64,000 nt of DNA from an uncultured Elusimicrobiales bacterium (GTDB taxonomy: Bacteria > Elusimicrobiota > Elusimicrobia > Elusimicrobiales > Elusimicrobiaceae), in the NCBI GenBank assembly GCA_944324675.1, contig CALUXE010000002.1:1-64000 (forward strand), given 5' to 3'. Each line of letters begins with the position of its first letter. The first letter of the stretch is position 1. The notes below the pieces were generated by a model that was not told the origin of the DNA, did not search any database, and was given only the letters and a program-made list of their open reading frames with translations. Positions 42,748 to 53,667 of the stretch are shown here, one piece after another. Both the position numbers and the translations under genes were made by a program.

Positions 42748-42787
42748 CGTGACGGGATGCTGTCGCGCGGATTTATTATTCTATATG
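42748..42787 (+). promoter_or_regulatory. Island inverted repeat, copy 1, with promoter
   Basis: CGTGACG-GGATGC-TGTCGCG (42748-42767). Its right half supplies CTGTCG (42760-42765) as a -35-like box, 16 bases before TATATG (42782-42787). It stands before the decayed zinc-ribbon gene at 42818 and is nearly identical to the copy at 44745. Confidence 0.65.
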
Positions 42788-42817
42788 TGCAGTACAAATT
42801 ATATATAGGAGAAATAT

Positions 42818-43129
42818 ATGCCGGAAACCAAATATGAATGCAATACATGTTGGCAGTTGTTTATTAACGCCACTCCTTTTCACCAAATAAGTTGTCCAGC
42901 TTGAGGTGGCTGATATTTCGCAAGTGGTAGCTATGATTATGTCCAGTATTCATGGTGTCTGAATTCTCAAAGGCCGCTATCGTAAGGTGTTTTTAAAATA
43001 TACTCGTCTATTTTAAATTTTTATGATTCCTATCAAAAAGCCAACGTGTCGCAACTTGCTCAAAAAGTCTCCGCGCAAAGTGATTTTAAGGTCCGACAAG
43101 ATATTCGCCAACATCAAAATTTGATATAG
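42818..43129 (+). pseudogene. Zinc-ribbon protein gene with three in-frame stop codons
   Basis: With a good ribosome binding site (TAGGAG) the frame starts MPETKYECNTCWQLF, clearly a paralogue of the intact zinc ribbon at 44815. The fourth Cys codon of the ribbon is TGA (42902-42904). The same frame stays protein-like for 103 codons to a TAG at 43127, interrupted only by TGA at 42911 and TAA at 42983 (later segments: SGSYDYVQYSWC, YQKANVSQLAQKVSAQSDF). So it is a recently disabled longer gene, or one with stop-codon read-through. Only 28 residues are made without read-through. Confidence 0.7.
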
Positions 43130-43177
43130 TTAAATTATAAATTTTCCTAATGTTGCATATGAATTTTAACTATCAAA
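43120..43177 (+). repeat. Inverted repeat before the 406-aa coiled-coil gene
   Basis: TTTGATATAGTTAAATT (43120-43136) and AATTTTAACTATCAAA (43162-43177) pair over about 15 positions with one two-base bulge, enclosing about 25 A/T-rich bases. It sits in the leader or promoter of the gene at 43211 and could be an operator or leader hairpin. Confidence 0.45.
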
Positions 43178-43210
43178 ACTTCCACTTAACTAAAAAGGAA
43201 TAAGAAAAAT

Positions 43211-44431
43211 ATGAATGAATTTGGATTACCCAAAGAACAAATAGAAGAAATCCTAAATTTAATTATTGAAAGGGGCCGATTTTCGTATGATTTACTAAAA
43301 GCTCATTTCGGCTCTTCGGTATATGCAGTGACAATATTAAGTTTTCTAGAAACCAACCGTTTTATTACCAAACCTTATGGTGCTGAACGTTGGGAAATCA
43401 ATTTTCCTAAAATAAAAAGATATTTAGCCACTATTAATTCATATAGCAATAGTAAAACAGAAAAAATAGAATTACCAACAACAATAAAAAAGGGTGGCCT
43501 AAAAAACATCCTTAATAAATTATATTTGGCCGATGCTAACTTTAATATTTTAAGTATACTGACCGCAGACTTGACAATTAGTGAAATTGATGAAAGTTTG
43601 GAACTTATTCAAATTGCAAAAACAAATTATAAAAATTTTATAAACCAGAGACAAAACTTATTAGAAAGGTTTTCAAGTTTAAACAAGAAAATAACCAAAG
43701 TAGAAAACAAAATAAATATTCAAAACCAAGCTATTGATTCCAAAGGCTCACCGCTAACCAGCACTCTAACATTTTTTGTTATTCTTATCTTTTGTGGGAT
43801 AGGAGCCTTTTTGTATGGAATACCAACGCCAGTAGTTTTAGGGGTAATGCTGTGCATTATCGTAATAGGGCTCTTTTTTCTACTACCACTAGGTAAACAA
43901 AAAAAATTAGAACTCAAAAGATTACAAGAGGAAAATTTATGTCTAAAAAACGATTTGCAAACATTAGAAGATGAGCAAGAAAATCTCAATGAGGAAGAGA
44001 ACAAAATTGCTATCGCGTGTGGATTAGATGAAGGGGCCACCCCTGAATTAGTAAACGTTAGCAATGCAAGACTACTTGAACTGGAAAATATCCTTCAAAA
44101 AATGAAAAATATTTTAATAACAACCCCTAGAAATTCTAGTGAACAAATTCTAGCATTAGAACAATTATTATATTTAGTCAATAAGAAATATATTGAAGAA
44201 AAAATGCTATCTGAGCAACAAAAAGCAACTACTTATGCTAAAGAACAAGCCGATTATGCTAGACAACAGGCGGACAGCGCACAAGAACAAGTGCAAGCTA
44301 TAAAAGATTTAGAAACGGCCATCAATATCCAAACAGATATGCAATATTGGCAAGGACAAGAACACGGACAAAGCGCGGCTGATTTAGCGCATATTGCTAG
44401 TTTAAAACATTGGTATAATAAACACAAATAA
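43211..44431 (+). CDS. Hypothetical membrane protein: FtsK-gamma-like winged helix plus coiled coils
   Basis: 406 residues, Lys/Asn-rich and AT-rich unlike the core genes. Residues 5-65 (LPKEQIEEILNLIIERGRFS, YDLLKAHFG) look like the winged-helix gamma domain of FtsK/SpoIIIE. A coiled coil follows (about 130-180), then two adjacent membrane helices near residues 188-232, a second coiled coil (about 235-280) and a C-terminal heptad stretch rich in AEQAD-type units. It could be a membrane-tethered DNA-binding or sensor protein. No known family is assigned. Confidence 0.65.
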   Translation: MNEFGLPKEQIEEILNLIIERGRFSYDLLKAHFGSSVYAVTILSFLETNRFITKPYGAERWEINFPKIKRYLATINSYSNSKTEKIELPTTIKKGGLKNILNKLYLADANFNILSILTADLTISEIDESLELIQIAKTNYKNFINQRQNLLERFSSLNKKITKVENKINIQNQAIDSKGSPLTSTLTFFVILIFCGIGAFLYGIPTPVVLGVMLCIIVIGLFFLLPLGKQKKLELKRLQEENLCLKNDLQTLEDEQENLNEEENKIAIACGLDEGATPELVNVSNARLLELENILQKMKNILITTPRNSSEQILALEQLLYLVNKKYIEEKMLSEQQKATTYAKEQADYARQQADSAQEQVQAIKDLETAINIQTDMQYWQGQEHGQSAADLAHIASLKHWYNKHK

Positions 44432-44501
44432 ACAATACTTGAATAATTAACCGCATATTTATGTCCCATTTTGATTGCTACGGTGACGAAATACACCACT
44501 T

Positions 44502-44521
44502 GGCGACACAATGTTTTATTG
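44502..44521 (+). promoter_or_regulatory. Possible decayed copy of the island inverted repeat
   Basis: GGCGACA-CAATGT matches the left arm and spacer of the island repeat, but the right arm (TTTATTG) is lost. The next 100 bases hold no gene. It may mark a former transcription unit. Confidence 0.3.
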
Positions 44522-44618
44522 ACAAATTAAGCGAGGGCATCTAGTCTTTTATAAAACCCAACAAAAAACTGCCGTTTCTAGTAAAACCGTTACATTATCT
44601 GAAATTCTGCCACATTCA

Positions 44619-44645
44619 ATAAAAACCCGCCGTTAGGCGGGTAAT
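44619..44645. terminator. Stem-loop between the coiled-coil gene and the zinc-ribbon operon
   Basis: 7-bp stem ACCCGCC/GGCGGGT with loop GTTA (44625-44642). The minus strand continues TTTTTATTG; the plus strand is only moderately T-rich. The rest of 44432-44744 has no gene. Confidence 0.6.
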
Positions 44646-44744
44646 TGTTATTGTTTTACCTTGTTATTAGGGGAAGTTGGCTTATATATACTTTGCAGGG
44701 GTAGTTATTACTGTGTATATTCTATTCCCCTTGTTTTTTTGCAC

Positions 44745-44784
44745 TGCGACGGGATGCTGTCGCGCGGGTTTGTTATCCTATATC
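44745..44784 (+). promoter_or_regulatory. Island inverted repeat, copy 2, with promoter
   Basis: TGCGACG-GGATGC-TGTCGCG (44745-44764). The right arm gives CTGTCG at 44757-44762; 16 bases later is TATATC (44779-44784). It controls the operon 44815-47841 (zinc ribbon, 102-aa protein, DUF2779 protein, HTH-TPR protein). Confidence 0.72.
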
Positions 44785-44814
44785 TGCAGTACAAATTATG
44801 TATAGGAGAACTAT

Positions 44815-44928
44815 ATGGCTGAACAAAAATATGAATGCAGCAAATGCCGTCAGATGTTTACCTTCACTTTCCCGCCTGCTGGGATGAAATGCCCGTCTTG
44901 CGGTGGACCGCTCTACCGCAGAGGGTAA
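44815..44928 (+). CDS. Small zinc-ribbon protein (37 aa)
   Basis: A complete 37-residue gene with TAGGAG eight bases upstream. Two CxxC pairs (YECSKC near residues 6-11 and MKCPSC near 24-29) form one zinc ribbon, and the protein ends LYRRG. It is like the small regulatory FmdB-type ribbons but shorter. It is the first gene of its operon and the intact paralogue of the pseudogene at 42818. An overlapping, differently phased frame begins inside it and is not the real start of the next gene. Confidence 0.75.
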   Translation: MAEQKYECSKCRQMFTFTFPPAGMKCPSCGGPLYRRG

Positions 44929-44936
44929 TGAAATAT

Positions 44937-44962
44937 GCCCCGGTCATCACGGTGGCCGGGGC
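44937..44962 (+). other. Strong RNA hairpin directly before a ribosome binding site
   Basis: GCCCCGGTCA pairs with TGGCCGGGGC (44937-44946, 44953-44962; ten pairs, one G-T), loop TCACGG. The next gene's AGGAGG starts two bases later. No T-run follows, so it is not a terminator. It may set the ratio between the zinc-ribbon protein and the downstream genes or mark an RNA-processing site. Confidence 0.6.
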
Positions 44963-44975
44963 TAGGAGGAATAAT

Positions 44976-45284
44976 ATGGAATTTGAATCAATTAAAGGCA
45001 ATATGCAGCGTTTTTTGGACCTTATGCATGCGCATGGAGGGCCGGATGGTATGATTAAACACGGCATCACTTGGGAAAAAGTGGCGTGGGGTAGCACCTA
45101 TGACAGTAATTTTGTCTACGTTTATTTTGAAATTAAACAACAAATAGATGAAAAGGGCGAGTTGCATTTGTTTGCAAAAAAAGGCGACGAATTACTAGAA
45201 CGCACGAAGCGGGATTTGGCCTACTCGTGCGATCTATACGACAAAGACGGCAAACTCCTTAACATTATGTTTTGGGGGTTTTGA
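44976..45284 (+). CDS. Hypothetical protein (102 aa)
   Basis: No family recognised. Acidic, soluble-looking, mixed alpha/beta, with SNFVYVYFEIKQQIDEKGELHLF and a hydrophobic C-terminus MFWGF. ATG 44976 has a perfect AGGAGG; the frame is open upstream but only across the zinc-ribbon gene in another phase. It lies between the zinc ribbon and the DUF2779 gene in one operon. Confidence 0.65.
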   Translation: MEFESIKGNMQRFLDLMHAHGGPDGMIKHGITWEKVAWGSTYDSNFVYVYFEIKQQIDEKGELHLFAKKGDELLERTKRDLAYSCDLYDKDGKLLNIMFWGF

Positions 45285-45312
45285 TGTGCTATCATACAAG
45301 TAAGAGGTGCGT

Positions 45313-46779
45313 ATGCATTTATCCAAATCACAATACACAAAATACCGCAGTTGCCCCAAACGTTTGTGGCTGTACCGCAACAAAAAAGAAGTGCTTACAC
45401 CGCCAAGTCCTGCTTTGCAAAAAATATTTGACCGTGGCCATTTTGTCGGCGAACTGGCTTGGAAACGCTTTTCGGGCGGGGTGCTAGTTAAAGATGGCTA
45501 CCAAAACCCGCAAGAAGCCATTAAACGCACGCAGGAACTCATGGCACAAGGCGTGCCGGCTATCTATGAGGCCGCATTTTGCTATAACGGTATTTTGGTA
45601 TTTGTGGATATTTTGGAAAAAACACTTACCGGCTGGAATCTGGTGGAAGTAAAAAGTAGCGGGCGCGAAATTGATCCCATTTATGTGGACGACATCTCTA
45701 TCCAACGCTATGTGCTTACGCATTGTGGGGTTACGCCAGAGCATTGTTATTTAATGCACATAAATAGCGACTATTTTATGGAAACGGATGAGCCGGATTT
45801 ACAACAACTTTTCCTTTTAACTCTGATGGATAGCGAACTATTTTCGGATGAGGATATTGAGGAAAATTTAGAGGATATTAAGAAATTACTAGTTGTTCCC
45901 GAACCGACGGTCGAACTGGATAAAAGCGGGTGTGCTGATTGTGAGTGCCACGACTATTGCTGGAAAGATATTCCGCAAGATTCCGTGTTTGCGTTGTTAC
46001 GCGGTAACCGTGCACGCAAGTTTATGCCACAGGGAATTGTACGCGTAGCGGATTTGCCGCCGAATAGTTTTGATAATGAAAAATATAACCGTTGGGTAGA
46101 GGTGTTACGCACAGGCACGCCTTATATTGACCATGCGGCGGTGACCGCGTGGCTTAATAAACTGGAGTACCCGCTTTATTATTTGGATTTTGAGACGACG
46201 CAACCCGTTGTCCCTTTGTGGAAATACTCGCGGCCTTATCAGCAAATTCCGTTTCAATTCTCGCTCCACGTGCAACGCGAGCCAAACGGCAAGTTTGAAC
46301 ATTACGAATATCTTTCCACAGGCAAGGAAGATCCGCGCTATGGTTGCGTGGAGGCATTGCTTAAATATATCGGTAATAGTGGTACTATATTGGCTCATAA
46401 TGCGGCTTTTGAAAAGACACGCATGAAAGAGATGGCACACGATTTGCCCATTCCCGGAAAGGATGCTAAACGCCTTTTGGACATGACGGAACGCTTTATG
46501 GATACGGGCGATCCTTTTAAACAGGATTATTTACACCCCAAAATGCACTGTAGTTGGTCTATTAAAAAGGTTTTACCCGCACTCGTACCCGAAATGAGCT
46601 ACGAAGGCATGGCCGTTGCCAACGGTGGGGATGACATGGATGCCTTTGATGTGTTATACTCACAAAGTTTACCGCCTGCCGAGTTAGAACAATTACGCAA
46701 AGACTTACTTAAATATTGCGAGCAAGACACTTGGACCATGGTCAAAATCGTGGATGCACTACGGGATAGCGTGCAATAG
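45313..46779 (+). CDS. DUF2779 protein: predicted Cas4-like plus DEDD nuclease
   Basis: 488 residues. The N-terminal half is PD-(D/E)XK-like: LSKSQYTKYRSCPKRLWLY start and the metal/catalytic NLVEVKSSG. It has a Cys cluster, SGCADCECHDYC, that could hold an Fe-S cluster as in Cas4/AddB. The C-terminal half is an RNase H-fold exonuclease type: LDFETT, LAHNAAFEKTRM and a late CEQDTWTMV. DUF2779 proteins often sit in mobile or defence regions, but their role is unknown. ATG 45313 follows AAGAGG. Confidence 0.82.
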   Translation: MHLSKSQYTKYRSCPKRLWLYRNKKEVLTPPSPALQKIFDRGHFVGELAWKRFSGGVLVKDGYQNPQEAIKRTQELMAQGVPAIYEAAFCYNGILVFVDILEKTLTGWNLVEVKSSGREIDPIYVDDISIQRYVLTHCGVTPEHCYLMHINSDYFMETDEPDLQQLFLLTLMDSELFSDEDIEENLEDIKKLLVVPEPTVELDKSGCADCECHDYCWKDIPQDSVFALLRGNRARKFMPQGIVRVADLPPNSFDNEKYNRWVEVLRTGTPYIDHAAVTAWLNKLEYPLYYLDFETTQPVVPLWKYSRPYQQIPFQFSLHVQREPNGKFEHYEYLSTGKEDPRYGCVEALLKYIGNSGTILAHNAAFEKTRMKEMAHDLPIPGKDAKRLLDMTERFMDTGDPFKQDYLHPKMHCSWSIKKVLPALVPEMSYEGMAVANGGDDMDAFDVLYSQSLPPAELEQLRKDLLKYCEQDTWTMVKIVDALRDSVQ

Positions 46780-46788
46780 GAGAAAATT

Positions 46789-47841
46789 ATGAAAACAAAT
46801 AAAGACTTCAAAAAATTGCCGAAGAAATCAACTAAAACAAAAAATGAGGACGTGAAAAAGGGGCTCTCGCGCCTGATTAAACTGATGATTGATTTAAATC
46901 AGGGTGTGCTGAATCTGGACCACGCCGCTGAGGAGTGTGGGGTAAGCCGCCGCACCATTCAGCGCGATATAGAAACGTTGGAACAAGCCGGATTGCCGCT
47001 TTATAAACCGAATAAACAAAATGTAAATTACCGTGTGCGGAGCGATTTTGATTGGGCAAACTTTAACATCACTAAAGAAAACGCATTGGATTTTGTGGAT
47101 GCACTAGATGCGCTTACTGAGGGGCTCGGCAAGCCCAGTAAATGGGTGCTGCCTATTCAAAAAGAGGTTGAAAAAGCTGGGCGCAAGGAGCAGAAAAAAC
47201 GTAAAGAAGCCGCGGGGAAGTGGGAGCCGATGAATGCCACCAAGGAAAACGTCTTATCTATCTTTTTAGATGACGGGAGTTTAAATCGTGCTCCTTTGCA
47301 AATTTTACTGGCACTTGCAGAATTTAATAAAGTTGCTGATGATAAAGATTTTAGGAATAGTGCCTATCGCAAGTGGCAAGAGCGTGAACTTCAAAAAATT
47401 ATGATTCGTTTCCATTGGTTAGGGCAACAACACCGCGATGCCTTAAAAGAGTGTGCCAAACTTATTAAGGATGACCCGAAGGATGTATGGCCTTATAAAC
47501 AAGCGGCCCTAATTTGCTATACCCAAAAAGATTATAAAGGTGCTTTGAAATATGCCTTGGACGGGTTTGAGCAAGGCAAGCAGGATGATACGTTTATTAC
47601 GTATGCTATTTATTTCTTGATATTAAACAAGTATTATGAAAAAGCCATAGACCTGTTTAACGCGGGTATTACCAATAAGGCCATGCAAACCCATTTTGCG
47701 GCTTTGATATATGCGTATGAGGGGCAATTTGATAAGGCGTTGGATGTGGTTGCCCAGGCCCAAAAAGTCGACCCCAAGAATCCCAAAGCCTACGAGTATA
47801 TCAAAGGGCAAGTATTAGACCTTAAGACTAAGAAACAGTAG
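46789..47841 (+). CDS. HTH regulator with a TPR-like C-terminal domain
   Basis: 350 residues. Residues 25-90 form a DeoR/WYL-type helix-turn-helix (LIKLMIDLNQGVLNLDHAAE, GVSRRTIQRDIETLEQAGLP), very similar in plan to the WYL regulator at 49244. Instead of a WYL domain, it has a helical middle and C-terminal helix pairs that read as TPR units (ALKECAKLIKDDPKDVWPYK, FDKALDVVAQAQKVDPKNPK). It probably senses a protein partner rather than a small ligand. It is the last gene of its operon; AGGAG precedes the start. Confidence 0.75.
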   Translation: MKTNKDFKKLPKKSTKTKNEDVKKGLSRLIKLMIDLNQGVLNLDHAAEECGVSRRTIQRDIETLEQAGLPLYKPNKQNVNYRVRSDFDWANFNITKENALDFVDALDALTEGLGKPSKWVLPIQKEVEKAGRKEQKKRKEAAGKWEPMNATKENVLSIFLDDGSLNRAPLQILLALAEFNKVADDKDFRNSAYRKWQERELQKIMIRFHWLGQQHRDALKECAKLIKDDPKDVWPYKQAALICYTQKDYKGALKYALDGFEQGKQDDTFITYAIYFLILNKYYEKAIDLFNAGITNKAMQTHFAALIYAYEGQFDKALDVVAQAQKVDPKNPKAYEYIKGQVLDLKTKKQ

Positions 47842-47866
47842 AAACCGCTATGACGGACAAACAAAA

Positions 47867-47908
47867 CGGGTGACAATATGTTGTCGCCCGCTTTTGTTAT
47901 CCTAAATA
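47867..47908 (+). promoter_or_regulatory. Island inverted repeat, copy 3, with promoter
   Basis: CGGGTGACA-ATATGT-TGTCGCCCG (47867-47890), nine paired bases per arm with one G-T. The right arm supplies TTGTCG (47881-47886), 16 bases before TAAATA (47903-47908). It drives the two tiny membrane-protein genes. Confidence 0.75.
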
Positions 47909-47940
47909 CAAGAAGTTGCTACGTACTAGGAGGCGGAAAT

Positions 47941-48015
47941 ATGGAAATACTTTTAATGATTATTGTAGGCATTATCGGCTTTGCGTTAGACGGAGCCACC
48001 GAGCGCAAAAATTAG
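47941..48015 (+). CDS. Tiny membrane protein 1 (24 aa)
   Basis: A 24-residue frame with AGGAGG 7 bases upstream. MEILLMIIVGIIGFALDG is one short hydrophobic helix, followed by a charged tail TERKN. It has the size and charge pattern of type I toxin or KdpF-like membrane peptides, but it is not assignable. The strong ribosome binding site and dedicated promoter argue for a real product. Confidence 0.6.
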   Translation: MEILLMIIVGIIGFALDGATERKN

Positions 48016-48050
48016 CGCATGATTACTATACCGCACATAGGGGGAAAAAT

Positions 48051-48128
48051 ATGAGCATACTAGGTTTTATCGTATTAGGGGTTTTGATGTTTATTGTTTT
48101 TATAGCCCTAGCCCAAATTGATTTTTAG
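48051..48128 (+). CDS. Tiny membrane protein 2 (25 aa)
   Basis: A 25-residue frame starting with MSILGFIVLGVLMFIVFIAL and ending AQIDF, almost wholly one membrane helix. GGGGGA lies 5 bases before the ATG. It follows the first tiny gene by 35 bases on the same message. A longer frame through 47916 is open but would run across the first tiny gene in another phase. Confidence 0.6.
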   Translation: MSILGFIVLGVLMFIVFIALAQIDF

Positions 48129-48130
48129 GG

Positions 48131-48158
48131 ATAGTCCCCCTAACTTTAGGGGGCTATT
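48131..48158. terminator. Terminator between the tiny genes and a convergent gene
   Basis: GC-rich stem-loop around CCCCCTA/TAGGGGG with outer ATAG/CTAT pairs and one bulge (48131-48157), in the 40-base gap between convergent genes. Confidence 0.65.
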
Positions 48159-48168
48159 CAAAAATCAA

Positions 48169-49029
48169 TTATTTAATTTGTTGGATGCTGTTTATAAATT
48201 CCTCTATAAAATCCTCGCGATTTTTGTCAGCTCTTTTTTTATTTCCTGGTTGTTTTTGTAAGGATTGATCTTCTTTTCTATAGAAATTTTCTGTACAAAT
48301 AAGCCAAAAGATCTTGTCTAGTTCATAAGCAGTGCGTCCGATTCTATTAGCCATTTCTATAACAATGCGATAGGCATAATATTGTTCTTTTTTTTGTTTT
48401 GTTACTTCATCAAAATTGTCTAAAATATGTTTTCCCATTTTTTTAATTATTTCAATAATATGTACATCGGGTTTTGGACAGTCAATTAATCCGGATTCTT
48501 TTAAACAATCACAGGCCAGTGCGAAACCAAATCCTTCAATTTCTTCAGCAAGTAGCAAAGGTAATGCAATTTTAGTATATGTATTGGCTGAAAACGATTC
48601 AATAAAATCTTTGAATGCATTTAGGTCATCAAATTGGTGTAGGAATATAGCAGCAGAATAAATGTAATCTGCATACTTTTTCCATGTGTTTTGAGAATTA
48701 TTAAAAGTATCTCCAAAAGCGAGTTCGAATTTTTGAAATATTTCGTTGCCACTAGAATATTCTTTACAAATATTGTGTGGATCAAAGTTATGTAAAATTA
48801 TTTTTAATACAGTTTCTTTTTTATCGAATTTGATAGAGTTGGTAACTCTTTGACGATTTTGTAAAGAAATTGTACATTGGCGCATCATATCATTTAAAGT
48901 TTCTATTTTGGGTGTTGCTAAATAATTTTTATAGAGATTATTAATTTTATACTTATCCGCTAGATTTTCTAAACGTTTTTTTGAAAATTGATACATTATA
49001 TTCAAATTTTCATTAAATTGATAATTCAT
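48169..49029 (-). CDS. Hypothetical protein with HhH-GPD-like segment (286 aa)
   Basis: A mostly helical protein. Residues about 160-205 (AEEIEGFGFALACDCLKESG, followed by PKPDVHIIEIIKKMG) resemble the helix-hairpin-helix and catalytic-Asp loop of HhH-GPD DNA glycosylases. The rest does not allow a firm family. It is third in the minus-strand operon behind the WYL regulator. A DNA-base-recognition role is therefore an inference. AGGAGG precedes the ATG at 49029. Confidence 0.55.
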   Translation of the reverse strand: MNYQFNENLNIMYQFSKKRLENLADKYKINNLYKNYLATPKIETLNDMMRQCTISLQNRQRVTNSIKFDKKETVLKIILHNFDPHNICKEYSSGNEIFQKFELAFGDTFNNSQNTWKKYADYIYSAAIFLHQFDDLNAFKDFIESFSANTYTKIALPLLLAEEIEGFGFALACDCLKESGLIDCPKPDVHIIEIIKKMGKHILDNFDEVTKQKKEQYYAYRIVIEMANRIGRTAYELDKIFWLICTENFYRKEDQSLQKQPGNKKRADKNREDFIEEFINSIQQIK

Positions 49030-49040
49030 ATTTCCTCCTT

Positions 49041-49247
49041 TTAATTCCTAGATTTTTTTATACAGAACATACTGTGGCTCGTTGATTCTACAAAGCATTC
49101 CGTGTCGCCTAAATCGTAGCGGGCAATGGGGGCTCCGGCATATTGGGTAATCGTTTTAACTTGTTCCATTTTGATTTGTATTTGTGCCGCACCATACCCC
49201 ACTCCAGCGGCCACGAGTAGGGCCAAAATTAAGTAAATTTTCTTCAT
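49041..49247 (-). CDS. Small exported or membrane-anchored protein (68 aa)
   Basis: An N-terminal hydrophobic segment (YLILALLVAAGVGYGAA) acts as signal or anchor. The rest is a short extracytoplasmic domain with two Cys (TECFVE, MFCIKK) that could form a disulfide. No family recognised. It overlaps the WYL regulator stop by four bases (ATGA), so it is coupled to it. Confidence 0.6.
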   Translation of the reverse strand: MKKIYLILALLVAAGVGYGAAQIQIKMEQVKTITQYAGAPIARYDLGDTECFVESTSHSMFCIKKSRN

Positions 49248-50164
49248 TTTGCGCTCCTTAAATAATCGTTTAATACGTCTTTTACGCGGTTGTGTAAAGA
49301 CGTGGGAGTTAGCACTTTAATATGCGGTAACCAATGCAAAATGGTGGGCAAGATTTCTTCTTCTTTGGCGGCCTTGCACGAGATAACAATCCTCCCGTCT
49401 TTTAGCTCCTTTTCCAGTTTTTGCAGTGGAAAATAGTTCTTTTGCTTAAAGAAATGCGCGCACTCGGCCGATACTTCCAACTGCACGGCCAAGGGTCGTT
49501 CTTTTTCAAACCATACATTCGTGCTTTCTTTGAGAGTTTTGTCTATATTTTTGTCGTACTTAAAAAACTTGCCCATCTCTTTGGCGGAGGAAATCTTTTC
49601 CAGGCGGAATTTTAACAGTTTGTCGTCATCTGTAAGCGAAAGCAAATACCAAAAACCCTCACTCCACAACAGTTTCAAAGGACGTACCGGGTAGCAGGCT
49701 TGACTGCCGCCTTTGTAGCATACGGTTACCCACTCGCGTGCACGGATAGCATCTTCCAACGTGCGTGTAATGGGGGTATCTTTATACATTTCTCCGCTAT
49801 TCATTTTGATAAAGAATGGGTTATCCTGCGGAGTGGCCAGTAAGCGGTTTTTAAGCATGGCAAATGAATGACCGAAATTGCCGCCTAATGAGGAGGCCAT
49901 ATCGCTCATCAGCACCAAAATAGAGGCCTCTGCGCTGGATAACTGCATACGCTCCAGCGAAAACCCCTCCGTAAATGCGTATACACCGGGATCGGGGTTC
50001 CAAAGCGGGAAATCAGCTTCTTGTATATCATTCATATCCCGTTGAATGGTTCGTACCGCTACACCGGTTTCCACCGCCATATCTTTCAGACGGATTTGGC
50101 CCTTATCCAGGGCGTTAAGTTCATACAAAAGACGTGTTAGTTTGTTGTGCATTTCTTTTTGCAT
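49244..50164 (-). CDS. WYL-domain transcriptional regulator
   Basis: 306 residues. A winged helix at residues 5-60 (DMAVETGVAVRTIQRDMNDI), a linker with a helical bundle, then a WYL domain near 150-225 (VTVCYKGGSQACYPVRPLKL, GFWYLLSLTDDDKLLKFRLE) and a C-terminal extension. This is the plan of PafB/BrxR/CapW-type regulators, which bind palindromes in defence islands and can sense nucleic acid. An inverted repeat (TGCGACA-N6-TGTCGCA) lies 33 bases before its start. Confidence 0.88.
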   Translation of the reverse strand: MQKEMHNKLTRLLYELNALDKGQIRLKDMAVETGVAVRTIQRDMNDIQEADFPLWNPDPGVYAFTEGFSLERMQLSSAEASILVLMSDMASSLGGNFGHSFAMLKNRLLATPQDNPFFIKMNSGEMYKDTPITRTLEDAIRAREWVTVCYKGGSQACYPVRPLKLLWSEGFWYLLSLTDDDKLLKFRLEKISSAKEMGKFFKYDKNIDKTLKESTNVWFEKERPLAVQLEVSAECAHFFKQKNYFPLQKLEKELKDGRIVISCKAAKEEEILPTILHWLPHIKVLTPTSLHNRVKDVLNDYLRSAK

Positions 50165-50196
50165 AGTTACCTCTTACAAACAGTATAGCACATCAG

Positions 50197-50216
50197 TGCG
50201 ACAAGGTGTTGTCGCA
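50197..50216. promoter_or_regulatory. Island inverted repeat, copy 4 (between WYL gene and divergent gene)
   Basis: A perfect TGCGACA-AGGTGT-TGTCGCA in the 101-base divergent gap. On the minus strand it overlaps the -35 region of a TATACT box (50182-50187) before the WYL gene. On the plus strand two TATAAT boxes (50222, 50227) follow. This fits control of the regulator's own operon and of the gene at 50266. Confidence 0.78.
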
Positions 50217-50265
50217 AGAAATATAATATAATAACATTGTTTTTTTAAAGGGATGAGGTGAATGT

Positions 50266-50991
50266 ATGCTACGTATGCCAAATAGGGAATTATTAGATAA
50301 AGTAGAAGAGTATTTTTACACAAATGAGAATTGGATTAAAAAAGACGGCATTGTAGATGAAGTGGCTTTTGCACAGGCACGCGTTAAAATACTGTGGATT
50401 TTAAGAGAGATGAATGAAAAAGAAGGATATAGACAATCCGGAGGCGATATGCGCAAGGATTGGCGTGCGTGTACTGAAAAAAATAATCTCAACCCCTATC
50501 ATGCCCCTCAAGGGGGGTACTCCAAAACTTATGCCTTAATCATTAAAACATCTGGGGCTATTTTAAAGAATGAGTGGTCTGTGGGGGGGTATCAATCATG
50601 GTGCCGGGAAGTACTGCCGCAAATAGCTATCATCAATGCTAAAAAAATGGCAGGCGGAGCGCATATAGACCCGTTTGCAATGCAACAATATTATAAAAAT
50701 GATGCCGATTTGCTGAAAGACCAAATAGCTGGTATTAATCCGGATATCATTATTAATACGAATCATTCTCCTGAATTATTGAAGCATTTAAATGTACAAG
50801 ATCCCCGCCAAGAAGTGTCTTGTGCGCTCATAAATCCTGCCAGGAAAGGATCCTTTTATTCTTACAGACAAAAAGATACCGGGCGAATTATATTAGAAGT
50901 ACAGCATACAAATACGCGCTGTCTTACACACGGGGAGTATATAAAGTTAGTACAGCTATGTTTGGCTAAACAAGGATTTCAATTTACTTAA
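50266..50991 (+). CDS. Hypothetical protein, possibly uracil-DNA-glycosylase-like fold (241 aa)
   Basis: The order of segments ARVKILWILREMNE, LPQIAIINAKKMAGG, and INPDIIINTNHS is like the strand-loop pattern of UDG-superfamily members (an early 'iGinP'-type loop, a mid-chain iaivNlkK, and a late PdiIi strand). I cannot see a certain catalytic motif, so this is a fold-level guess. It is divergent from the WYL regulator and shares its operator; a terminator follows. Confidence 0.5.
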   Translation: MLRMPNRELLDKVEEYFYTNENWIKKDGIVDEVAFAQARVKILWILREMNEKEGYRQSGGDMRKDWRACTEKNNLNPYHAPQGGYSKTYALIIKTSGAILKNEWSVGGYQSWCREVLPQIAIINAKKMAGGAHIDPFAMQQYYKNDADLLKDQIAGINPDIIINTNHSPELLKHLNVQDPRQEVSCALINPARKGSFYSYRQKDTGRIILEVQHTNTRCLTHGEYIKLVQLCLAKQGFQFT

Positions 50992-51014
50992 TCCTGCGGT
51001 ATTTCTCTATTTTT

Positions 51015-51048
51015 AAAAAAGACCTAGCATTTTGCCTAGGTCTTTTTT
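51015..51048 (+). terminator. Terminator after the gene at 50266
   Basis: Stem AAAAAAGACCTAG/CTAGGTCTTTTTT (51015-51027, 51036-51048), a textbook intrinsic terminator. Confidence 0.9.
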
Positions 51049-51058
51049 GTTGCTATGG

Positions 51059-51098
51059 TGCGACATAGTGTTGTCGCAGGGGTTTTTTACACTATACG
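51059..51098 (+). promoter_or_regulatory. Island inverted repeat, copy 5, with promoter of the AAA+ operon
   Basis: A perfect TGCGACA-TAGTGT-TGTCGCA (51059-51078). The right arm gives TTGTCG (51071-51076) as -35, 16 bases before TATACG (51093-51098). The next gene begins at 51127. Confidence 0.8.
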
Positions 51099-51126: not shown

Positions 51127-53139
51127 ATGAAATATACCTATGAACAATACGAAACATTTTACTATATCAACAGACTGTTACCTTATCTGAGAAATCTACA
51201 AACTATTAGAGATTCCAGACGGAATTTGATTTTGACAGTAAAAAAAATAGATGAAAACGTACTACCGGGTTTAAAAAAAATTAATCCATATGATTATAAT
51301 ACCGTAAAGGCATCAGATAAGATTATCAGTAAGCTAGAGAAGGCCCTGGCTAACTATAGCAGTGTTTACTTGAGTTTGCCGCTTTGCCCCCAGCAAGATA
51401 ATATTTCTTATTTGGTACGTATTTTCAATTTGAATATACAAGAGGAAGCTGTGATACGGTTTTTAGGTGCGGCGCAATACAATGAATTATTAAGAAGCTG
51501 TTTGCATGAGTTCCATAGCGACCTGGAGGGACAAGAATATGCGCTGACGGAAGTGTCCGGATGTCTGCATGGGATGGGGTTTGCTATTCTCAATGCAAAC
51601 GCTCCGTTACGGCGGCTAGGAATTTTGCGCGAATCTCGTTTTAGAGAACTTTTTAAACTGACCAGTTGGGCACAAGGGTTTATTAATACCGTGCATAAAA
51701 ATGATGAGGCCCGTTATCAAGCTTTATTGGGAACAGAGGTGATAGAAGAGAATCCGCTGAATAAGTCTGATTTTGCGTATGTGGAAGCGGCTGATTTGGC
51801 ATTAAAGCTAATCAAGCAAGCGAAACATCACAAAGGTTTTAATATTCTTTTGTATGGAGTACCGGGTACAGGGAAAACAAGTTTTGCTAAATACTTGGCC
51901 CACGCGGCTAAATTAAAATTATACCCGGTAGGGGTATGTAGCGAAGGAGAGATAGAACAAAACTACCGGCTACAACAATTTTACCGCAAACAATTTTTGC
52001 TTAAAAATGTCAAAAACGCGTGTATCCTCTTTGACGAAGGAGAGGATATATTTTCCAGCCTAGAAACACGTACAAGCAAAATGGAAATTAATAATTTATT
52101 GGAAAATAACGAAGTGCCTGTCATTTGGACGACGAACAAAATCCACCGCATGGATCCGGCGTTTATTCGGCGTTTTACGTTGCCGGTATGCTTTAATAAG
52201 CCGCCCGTGGAAGTGCGCCAAAAGATTTGGCATAAATATCTAACGGAAAATAAAATTGCGTGCGGCAAGGAGGACAGCTTAAAACTTGCCAAAAAGTATG
52301 AAGTGCCACCATCCATGATTGCAGGCGCCACGCATGCGACCCATATGGCTAAAGGAGATTTAAATACGGTTAAAGACCACCTCTCTTTTATGACCCAAGC
52401 CCTCAACGGCGGTTATAAAAAACCGGAAGAAAATACGGAAAATCCCGAATTTGAAACCGCCCTTGTTAATGCGGATATAAATTTAGATATTTTAACGGAG
52501 CAAATTACACATTCGGGCCGGCTAAATTTCTCGCTTTGCTTATACGGGGCTAGTGGTACGGGCAAATCGGCCTATGCGCAGTATTTAGCGCAAGAATTAG
52601 GATTGGATGTGCTACACCGTAGGGCATCAGATTTGCTGTCCAAATGGGTTGGTGGAACAGAACAAAATATCGCCGAGGCCTTTGCACAGGCCAAAGAGAA
52701 TAAATCACTCTTAATTTTTGATGAGGCTGATAGTTTCTTGCGGGACCGTGCTACGGCTTCTCACTCGTGGGAAATATCCGGTGTAAATGAAATGTTGACC
52801 TGGATGGAATCGCACCCGTATCCGTTTATTTGCACCACCAACCTCATGGACACGCTGGACCCGGCCAGTTTGCGGCGGTTTAGTTTTAAGATTAAGTATG
52901 ATTTTTTAACTCTCCAGCAAGTGGTATGTGCCTTTATGTTCTTTTTCCATGTAATGATTGAGCCACAAGATGTGGTAGGGTTAGATAAACTAACCCCCGG
53001 CGATTTTGCCCTTGTGAAAAATAAGGCAGAAATATTGGGGCATGCGCACGATTTTTACGCGCTAAAAGAAATGCTGGAAACCGAGCAAAAGCTTAAACAC
53101 AATGCTTATGGTAGTGGCATTGGTTTCCGAGTCAATTAA
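51127..53139 (+). CDS. Tandem AAA+ ATPase (two ATPase domains)
   Basis: 670 residues. About 230 helical N-terminal residues precede the first AAA domain, Walker A GVPGTGKTS near 245 and Walker B CILFDEGED near 300. The second AAA domain has Walker A GASGTGKSA near 475, Walker B LLIFDEADS near 530, and a conserved Arg pair in DPASLRRFSF. Both domains look active. This is remodeller-like, but no named family is certain. ATG 51127 has AAGGAG upstream; the open frame further up crosses the operator. It is the first gene of a four-gene operon. Confidence 0.82.
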   Translation: MKYTYEQYETFYYINRLLPYLRNLQTIRDSRRNLILTVKKIDENVLPGLKKINPYDYNTVKASDKIISKLEKALANYSSVYLSLPLCPQQDNISYLVRIFNLNIQEEAVIRFLGAAQYNELLRSCLHEFHSDLEGQEYALTEVSGCLHGMGFAILNANAPLRRLGILRESRFRELFKLTSWAQGFINTVHKNDEARYQALLGTEVIEENPLNKSDFAYVEAADLALKLIKQAKHHKGFNILLYGVPGTGKTSFAKYLAHAAKLKLYPVGVCSEGEIEQNYRLQQFYRKQFLLKNVKNACILFDEGEDIFSSLETRTSKMEINNLLENNEVPVIWTTNKIHRMDPAFIRRFTLPVCFNKPPVEVRQKIWHKYLTENKIACGKEDSLKLAKKYEVPPSMIAGATHATHMAKGDLNTVKDHLSFMTQALNGGYKKPEENTENPEFETALVNADINLDILTEQITHSGRLNFSLCLYGASGTGKSAYAQYLAQELGLDVLHRRASDLLSKWVGGTEQNIAEAFAQAKENKSLLIFDEADSFLRDRATASHSWEISGVNEMLTWMESHPYPFICTTNLMDTLDPASLRRFSFKIKYDFLTLQQVVCAFMFFFHVMIEPQDVVGLDKLTPGDFALVKNKAEILGHAHDFYALKEMLETEQKLKHNAYGSGIGFRVN

Positions 53140-53151
53140 AGGAGATAGAAT

Positions 53152-53667
53152 ATGAAAAAAACAGCCATACAACAAAACATACTAGCAGATGCTTCTGCGA
53201 AATCGATTGATGTAGGAGCAATTACATGTCTTAAGAAGGAAGACTTGCCCCGTATGCTTCTACAGAACTTTTCCAGTAATTTGGCGGTTGCATTATTTGT
53301 ATGTGGAAAAGATAGGCATGATTTCTATGAATATTTACTTTCAGAGTTAACCCAAATTAAATTGGAACGGATTCAAAGTGGATATTTAAATAAAGAAGAA
53401 TATTCTCGCTGTGAAGAGGTATTGACATATTTATCCAAGAGTCCACTTTATATAGATGACGCTGTTTCCCTAGATATTAGTGAAATAAAAAAGCGTGTAG
53501 ACAGATTATCGCGAGAACTAACCTTGCAAGGAATTAAATTGGGGTTAATAGTGTTTTGGAGAGCGTACGAAGGAGAAGTGGATAGTAGTGAGAAAAGAAA
53601 ATGGCAAGTTGAATTACAAGAAATATCCCTAAAATTGTGTGTACCTGTAATAATGGTTAAAGAATAG
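53152..53667 (+). CDS. DnaB-like protein without Walker motifs (171 aa)
   Basis: Residues 75-150 follow replicative helicase DnaB closely: ERIQSGYLNKEEYSR, SPLYIDDAVSLDISEIKKRV, and GIKLGLIVFW line up with DnaB's RIRTGQL..., YIDD...E...R and GLIMID segments. The P-loop part is absent, and the Walker B Asp position reads FW. So it keeps the fold but cannot bind or hydrolyse ATP in the usual way. It lies 12 bases after the AAA+ gene with AGGAG before the start. Confidence 0.7.
   Translation: MKKTAIQQNILADASAKSIDVGAITCLKKEDLPRMLLQNFSSNLAVALFVCGKDRHDFYEYLLSELTQIKLERIQSGYLNKEEYSRCEEVLTYLSKSPLYIDDAVSLDISEIKKRVDRLSRELTLQGIKLGLIVFWRAYEGEVDSSEKRKWQVELQEISLKLCVPVIMVKE

Follow-up and report, generated by a model that had tools for sequence, protein, structure and literature searches.

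The stretch of DNA analysed here (the window) comprises 64,000 nucleotides (nt) of contig CALUXE010000002.1 from an uncultured Elusimicrobiales bacterium of the family Elusimicrobiaceae, and between positions 42,748 and 51,098 it holds part of a defence island in which the inverted repeat GYGAC-N8-GTCGC occurs five times. The repeats lie ahead of a small zinc-ribbon gene and a truncated duplicate of it, a pair of tiny hydrophobic peptides, a double-AAA+ operon and, as an initial annotation of the window had already recognised for one copy, between the gene for a WYL regulator (49244-50164) and a divergent neighbour (Table 1). Island neighbours include AbiE, TIR and caspase genes. From promoter geometry, comparisons between genomes and the relationships of the WYL protein, we propose that the repeats are promoter elements of a mobile regulon that is probably switched on by the WYL protein upon DNA damage.

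All five inverted repeats of the initial annotation are present, with first bases at 42749, 44746, 47870, 50198 and 51060, and the spacer, given there as seven or eight nt, is eight in every copy. In the whole genome (1,399,677 bases, 17 contigs) the exact pattern is confined to these five island positions, and the same search bears out that no copy lies in front of the abiE, recombinase, TIR and caspase genes. Within the window, allowing at most one mismatch, ten oriented matches were obtained compared to 2.8 expected, and 0/100 shuffles reached ten. The copies at 42748 and 44745 are parts of one duplicated segment consisting of the promoter and a small open reading frame (ORF), and the ORF of the first copy stops early relative to that at 44815. 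Hence, the five sites stand, but they represent about four independent functional units and not the five transcription units first assumed. Some four independent sites are modest evidence alone, and the argument is carried by the relatives described below. The truncated duplicate (42818-42904) retains an intact-looking operator-promoter. The proposed degenerate copy at 44502 is a single left half-site (GGCGACACAATGTTTTATTG) and was not counted.

The position of the repeats relative to the transcription start signals was assessed on 224 oriented palindromes drawn from 61 WYL loci of Elusimicrobiales. TANNNT is located exactly 11 nt past TGTCG in 128/224 oriented sites (runner-up offset, 23; background, about 3%), often preceded by TGn as in extended -10 elements, and TGNTANNNT is found at the offset-11 position 61 times and 0-1 times at other places. 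As a control, the -10 element stands at 11 nt in 13/14 sites near a WYL gene versus 4/15 sites far from one. Operator and promoter are accordingly fused in these repeats, giving units that read CGACA-N6-TGTCG-N11-(TGn)TANNNT. With TANNNT set at -12 to -7, the palindrome covers approximately -39 to -24, and no -35 hexamer is present. The initial annotation had instead placed TATAnn or TAAATA boxes 16 nt downstream, with the right arm covering the -35. We rejected this assignment, as TANNNT at 11 nt is far commoner and is kept where the 16-nt TATA is gone (e.g. L077, L078); the 16-nt element is sequence overlapping the end of the offset-11 hexamer, and several orthologous promoters no longer have it. 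The right arm is thus no -35 hexamer. The 11-nt spacing is shared by the WYL gene's own promoter (50182-50214), so that a palindrome can be shared by two divergent promoters.

This geometry also bears on the notion that the repeats are structural, i.e. sites of recombination or element ends without a regulatory role. The palindromes are scattered through an island of mosaic make-up, a serine recombinase is encoded close by, and two palindromes lie in the duplicated segment, as such a role might predict. A fixed distance to the -10 element and a position before the start codons of dozens of unrelated operons already contradict it, and we consider it scarcely credible.

The same palindrome was then followed, together with the WYL protein and a protein with helix-turn-helix (HTH) and TPR domains that is also encoded in the island, through 149 Elusimicrobiales genomes. 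In the 89 further Elusimicrobiaceae genomes, 47/80 exact GYGAC-N8-GTCGC sites and 59/85 of the full operator-promoter units listed are located at most 12 kb from a WYL homologue, while the 12-kb WYL zones make up only about 1.7% of the DNA. A WYL homologue is encoded in 28/33 of the unit-bearing genomes versus 17/56 of those without the unit (Fisher p=7e-7, which is indicative since the genomes are related), and in the family relatives one operator is commonly found 34-100 base pairs (bp) upstream of the WYL gene itself. Moreover, operator variants track WYL lineages. In the lineage with the recognition helix RSVQRYI, one side of the palindrome reads TGACA, with an altered outer base, in 8/9 promoters versus 11/124 in the RTxQRD lineages (p=3e-7), and other lineages are characterised by a fixed left CGACC or a fixed spacer AACGTT. 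The counts are not independent events, and the pattern fits a protein-DNA pair that would have co-evolved. Taken together, co-occurrence, synteny and covariation of the operators across relatives strongly support the claim of the initial annotation that one regulon stands under the WYL protein, and argue for a strong link between the two.

The reader might instead be the HTH-TPR protein or another island protein. The HTH of the former is weakly similar to that of PafC, and its gene adjoins operator 3, but it is encoded in only 11/149 genomes, and islands with operators and a WYL gene but without it are common (e.g. G005, G017). On this distribution we rejected it, and regard the HTH-TPR protein or another island protein as a highly unlikely reader.

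The WYL protein of the island is at best 48% identical to homologues in its own genus and 88-89% identical to those in species of another genus. In one genome of the latter (G066), the WYL and HTH-TPR proteins are 89% and 92% identical to the island proteins, the gene order zinc ribbon, membrane peptides, WYL, AAA+ is conserved, and operators are found at the same places; the closest island relatives are rumen and gut metagenome-assembled genomes (MAGs) named Elusimicrobium, Elusimicrobiaceae or Elusimicrobiales. With identity, order and operators kept across genera, the island has probably moved between genera together with its operators. Support for the WYL regulon is good, and it is probably a mobile, multi-cassette one.

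Beyond the family, 341 genomes of the phylum were scanned for CGACA-N6-TGTCG-N11-TANNNT, which was found in 109 of them, with reversed controls near zero. Most genomes of the sister family carry several to about 50 units each. Located directly behind a unit are recA in four sister-family genera (L201, L207, L212, L217), ssb (L216) and radC (L219), both named from sequence, as well as rmuC (L197), a gene for an SbcD-like metallophosphoesterase (L211) and genes for ComM-type ATPases (L206, L214). It is in the sister family that DNA-damage genes are seen as targets of the unit, and the set looks like a DNA-damage regulon. The initial annotation had named a wide spread of the motif outside the island, away from WYL genes, as an observation that would speak against its regulon; this is seen in part here, genome-wide and ahead of recA and repair genes, but in genomes that mostly encode WYL proteins. 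Dense clusters of units surround sister-family WYL genes in L242 (G107 contig 47) and L243 (G112 contig 7); these islands, in which a distant (26%) WYL gene is accompanied by as many as about a dozen units, are bigger than the regulon of the window.

Units preceding recA, ssb and radC, and LexA-like proteins in many genomes of the order, could alternatively mark the sites as SOS boxes of the host LexA. However, ten Elusimicrobiaceae lexA promoters, including that of the genome studied here, share TAGAAC-N6-TAGAAC and in 0/10 cases contain CGAC-N8-GTCG. In sister-family genomes without detectable LexA, e.g. G091, recA is still preceded by the unit, and the genome of the window contains such a palindrome only once off the island. 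Identity with the LexA box was rejected, as the lexA promoters have a different box, and we judge a role of LexA at these sites to be very improbable. The direct repeat of the lexA promoters (L249-L256, L259, L260) is a probable LexA box in its own right, and the units before recA in the four sister-family genera, some of whose genomes have no detectable LexA, are a candidate WYL-run substitute for the SOS system.

What kind of regulator the WYL protein may be was approached by profile and structure comparisons. Pfam WYL and WCX are found above cut-off and HTH_11 weakly, giving the order HTH-WYL-WCX of the DriD and PafBC type. A search with the single protein by phmmer against the PDB gave no match, but the family profile did match solved structures, namely DriD (9pfq and 8tp8, at 4e-11 and 5e-11), PafBC (3e-9) and, far behind, BrxR (0.31). 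Foldseek with the predicted model placed DriD (2.6e-14) and PafBC (2.7e-13) ahead of CapW (1e-7) and BrxR (4e-7). In the profile alignment, the basic pair of the WYL loop, R-x-x-R in DriD, is kept as R186 and K189. By the profile and Foldseek searches, BrxR and CapW, the models chosen in the initial annotation, are not the best comparison, and the protein is nearest to the activators DriD and PafBC.

DriD, an activator of Caulobacter crescentus, has the same HTH-linker-WYL-WCX architecture and is the nearest solved structure by both profile and fold. It recognizes the consensus ATACGAC-N7-GTCGTAT at a constant distance to the -10 element, with the -35 at the site centre (PMC12340889). When we aligned the printed DriD promoters on the conserved G-14, the half-site was, in our own reading, located 11 nt before -12, as in the units described here. 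Both systems share the CGAC and GTCG half-sites of a palindrome, its fixed distance to the -10 element over or in place of a poor -35, a site at the regulator's own gene and, as far as the sister family is concerned, DNA-damage genes as targets. They differ in the spacer between CGAC and GTCG, which is 8 in every copy here versus 7 in DriD, in sequence (about 20% identity) and in the targets, here the several cassettes of a mobile defence island; activation and binding of single-stranded DNA (ssDNA) are only predicted for the island protein.

PafBC, a mycobacterial DNA-damage activator that works by sigma adaptation, belongs likewise to the WYL family and serves promoters without a usable -35. 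Its RecA-NDp motif, reportedly given by Gamulin in 2004 as tTGTCRgtg-N8-TAnnnT, has the TTGTC half-site and the 11-nt distance to TAnnnT of the units described here. In contrast to the single homodimer-type protein and palindrome of the island, PafBC is a heterodimer or fusion with a non-palindromic motif. It substitutes for recognition of the -35 and acts through a -26 element (PMC11804915). SiwR, a WYL activator of M. smegmatis, resembles the island protein as proposed here in being a homodimer whose imperfect palindrome lies between the -35 and the -10, that is linked to genotoxic stress and that needs R38 and R42 of its HTH, yet it controls a single adjacent operon, and we saw no sign of a common operator sequence. 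Replacement of these arginines (R38A-R42A) abolished promoter binding by SiwR (PMC10693628). In the WYL family of the island R38 and R42 are invariant, and by their numbers they may correspond to the SiwR arginines.

The characterised WYL regulators of defence loci point in a different direction. BrxR and CapW, of BREX and CBASS systems, are repressors that bind promoter palindromes and regulate themselves (PMC9122601, PMC9122588, PMC9122589), and they resemble the island protein in their genomic setting and in the inverted repeat at their own promoter, here operator 4; in the BrxR system of pEFER two boxes lie in one island. The WYL protein could accordingly bind the very same sites as a repressor, blocking sigma and RNA polymerase at the extended -10 until released by a ligand. 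The site of Acinetobacter BrxR, which spans -51 to -27, would be in agreement with this, and the decent extended -10 elements of the island promoters might function unaided. On the other hand, BrxR and CapW are more distant in sequence and fold and are not associated with a five-site regulon of fixed spacing, the Acinetobacter BrxR operator is unrelated in sequence, and CapW sites overlap the -10. The spacing to the -10 element is fixed to one base in more than 100 promoters, which a repressor does not need, no -35 is present, the protein is nearer to DriD and PafBC, and the sister-family unit precedes recA and repair genes. A position fixed to a single bp over many unrelated operons would be expected as a requirement of an activator that touches RNA polymerase, not of a repressor. 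We therefore view repression as unlikely, while still a serious alternative.

The mechanism that we infer from these comparisons is the following. A homodimer of the island WYL protein would bind the palindrome at approximately -39 to -24, in the place of the -35. Its WYL domain would take up a DNA-damage signal, probably ssDNA, as in DriD of Caulobacter and PafBC of mycobacteria, and the signal-bound protein would then recruit RNA polymerase to promoters that lack a -35 and often have an extended -10. The zinc-ribbon/nuclease unit, the two tiny membrane peptides, the divergent 241-residue gene and the double-AAA+ operon would be switched on jointly, presumably for anti-phage use, and the WYL protein would regulate its own synthesis from operator 4. 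We assign a probability of roughly 60% to the reading that the WYL protein is a DriD-like, DNA-damage-responsive activator acting on the island operators.

Several observations weigh against it. The predicted WYL structure is of moderate confidence (predicted local distance difference test, pLDDT, 68) and reliable mainly in WYL-WCX. CapW, too, binds ssDNA (PDB 9c5g), and the type of ligand hence does not tell an activator from a repressor. In the family, 26/85 of the units listed lie away from any detected WYL gene, and no WYL protein was detected in five unit-bearing genomes, although these MAGs are incomplete and the search threshold was strict; likewise, the WYL Pfam domain was detected in 5/20 genomes chosen from the order, the majority of which carry sites, which implies that orphan sites exist or that MAGs are incomplete. 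The WYL gene of clade F is adjoined by a different inverted repeat, AAGGG-N8-CCCTT. In the sister family, several WYL genes have no upstream site, which makes a WYL protein no more than a candidate reader of the recA promoters there.

The clade F repeat (approximate) is located 60-75 bp before the WYL genes of L121, L123, L124, L125 and L127, with a CGACA unit also nearby.

A wider scenario, which we advance tentatively and with slightly more doubt than confidence, is that Elusimicrobiales possess a WYL-based DNA-damage regulon (recA, ssb, radC, rmuC etc.) operating through CGACA-N6-TGTCG-N11-TANNNT, LexA-free in some genera. In Elusimicrobiaceae it would survive mainly as self-contained mobile regulons comprising a WYL activator, defence cassettes and tiny membrane peptides, the island firing on DNA damage or phage attack. 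In the open-licence literature, we found WYL defence regulators only in control of single operons or, with two boxes, of one system, and no described SOS or WYL regulation for Elusimicrobiota. In the present island, several unrelated cassettes appear to be under the command of one linked WYL gene, via near-identical promoter units that accompany it from genus to genus. The geometry suggests damage-triggered activation rather than derepression, which would tie anti-phage islands to the DNA-damage response in Elusimicrobiota, and the promoter signature could be used to find uncharacterised defence genes through their co-regulation partners.

Table 1. Operators and associated genes of the island (positions in the window).
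Feature	Position	Strand	Remarks
Operator 1, TGACGGGATGCTGTCG	42750..42765	+	-10 TATTCT 42777-42782, 11 nt downstream; ahead of truncated zinc-ribbon ORF copy
Truncated small zinc-ribbon gene copy (MPETKYECNTC...)	42818..42904	+	In-frame TGA at 42902
Operator 2, CGACGGGATGCTGTCG	44747..44762	+	-10 TATCCT 44774-44779
37-residue zinc-ribbon protein (MAEQKYECSKC...CPSCGG)	44815..44928	+	First gene after operator 2; kept behind operator in relatives
DUF2779 / RecB-like (Cas4-like) nuclease	45307..46779	+	Pfam PF11074 3e-39; PADLOC Cas4
HTH-TPR protein	46789..47841	+	HTH_11 and TPR; adjoins operator 3
Operator 3, TGACAATATGTTGTCG	47871..47886	+	-10 TATCCT 47898-47903
24-residue hydrophobic peptide, MEILLMIIVGIIGFALDGATERKN	47941..48015	+	Conserved in L079 and L083, with ribosome-binding sites
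25-residue hydrophobic peptide, MSILGFIVLGVLMFIVFIALAQIDF	48051..48128	+	Conserved in L079 and L083
WYL regulator, 306 residues	49244..50164	-	HTH, helical linker, WYL, WCX; Pfam WYL and WCX
Operator 4, CGACAAGGTGTTGTCG	50199..50214	.	Common to WYL gene (-10 TATACT, minus strand, 50182-50187, 11 nt away) and divergent 241-residue gene (-10 TATAAT 50227-50232, 12 nt away)
241-residue protein	50266..50991	+	Divergent from WYL gene, operator 4 between
Operator 5, CGACATAGTGTTGTCG	51061..51076	+	-10 TACACT 51088-51093
Double-AAA+ ATPase, 670 residues	51127..53139	+	AAA domain similar to IetA
DnaB-C-like ATPase	53152..53667	+	PF03796 1e-11; next gene in AAA+ unit

Of the genes behind the operators, that for the DUF2779 nuclease is probably in the same unit as the 37-residue zinc-ribbon gene, and intact 37-residue relatives of the zinc-ribbon protein are encoded in L081/L082. 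The start of the double-AAA+ gene was moved from 51055 to the ATG at 51127, because operator 5 lies upstream of the latter. Family searches including Pfam and PADLOC gave no family match for the 241-residue protein. In relatives, operators are also found ahead of DUF2130, agmatine-deiminase-like, DUF7788/DUF2828, PDDEXK and DnaB-C genes, as well as of GIY-YIG, Fic and dynamin-like genes, the last three named by sequence judgement only.

Off the island, the broader core CGACA-N6-TGTCG has one additional exact copy in the same genome, at contig 3 position 200705 (L152). It is the sole operator-promoter unit outside the island and precedes a gene for a predicted lipoprotein of 69-75 residues, with a PHP-type protein (CDLHIHTPFS) encoded nearby. 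Genomic sites with one mismatch were considered as further targets and rejected, since those inspected lie mostly within long coding frames and the contig 3 copy alone resembles a real unit.

The tandem ORFs of 24 and 25 residues each encode one hydrophobic stretch, have good ribosome-binding sites and are conserved in genomes G066 and G015. They are possible candidates for damage-induced membrane peptides, reminiscent, by analogy only, of E. coli TisB. At the L079 and L083 loci a third hydrophobic peptide ORF, of 28 residues, is present. In another WYL lineage, represented by L121 (minus strand, site 10677) and L127 (site 9346), the operator is located before a membrane peptide of 58-59 residues beginning MEYILTLLVAVLIGLIGMRKWPKWG, whose gene is convergent with the WYL gene.

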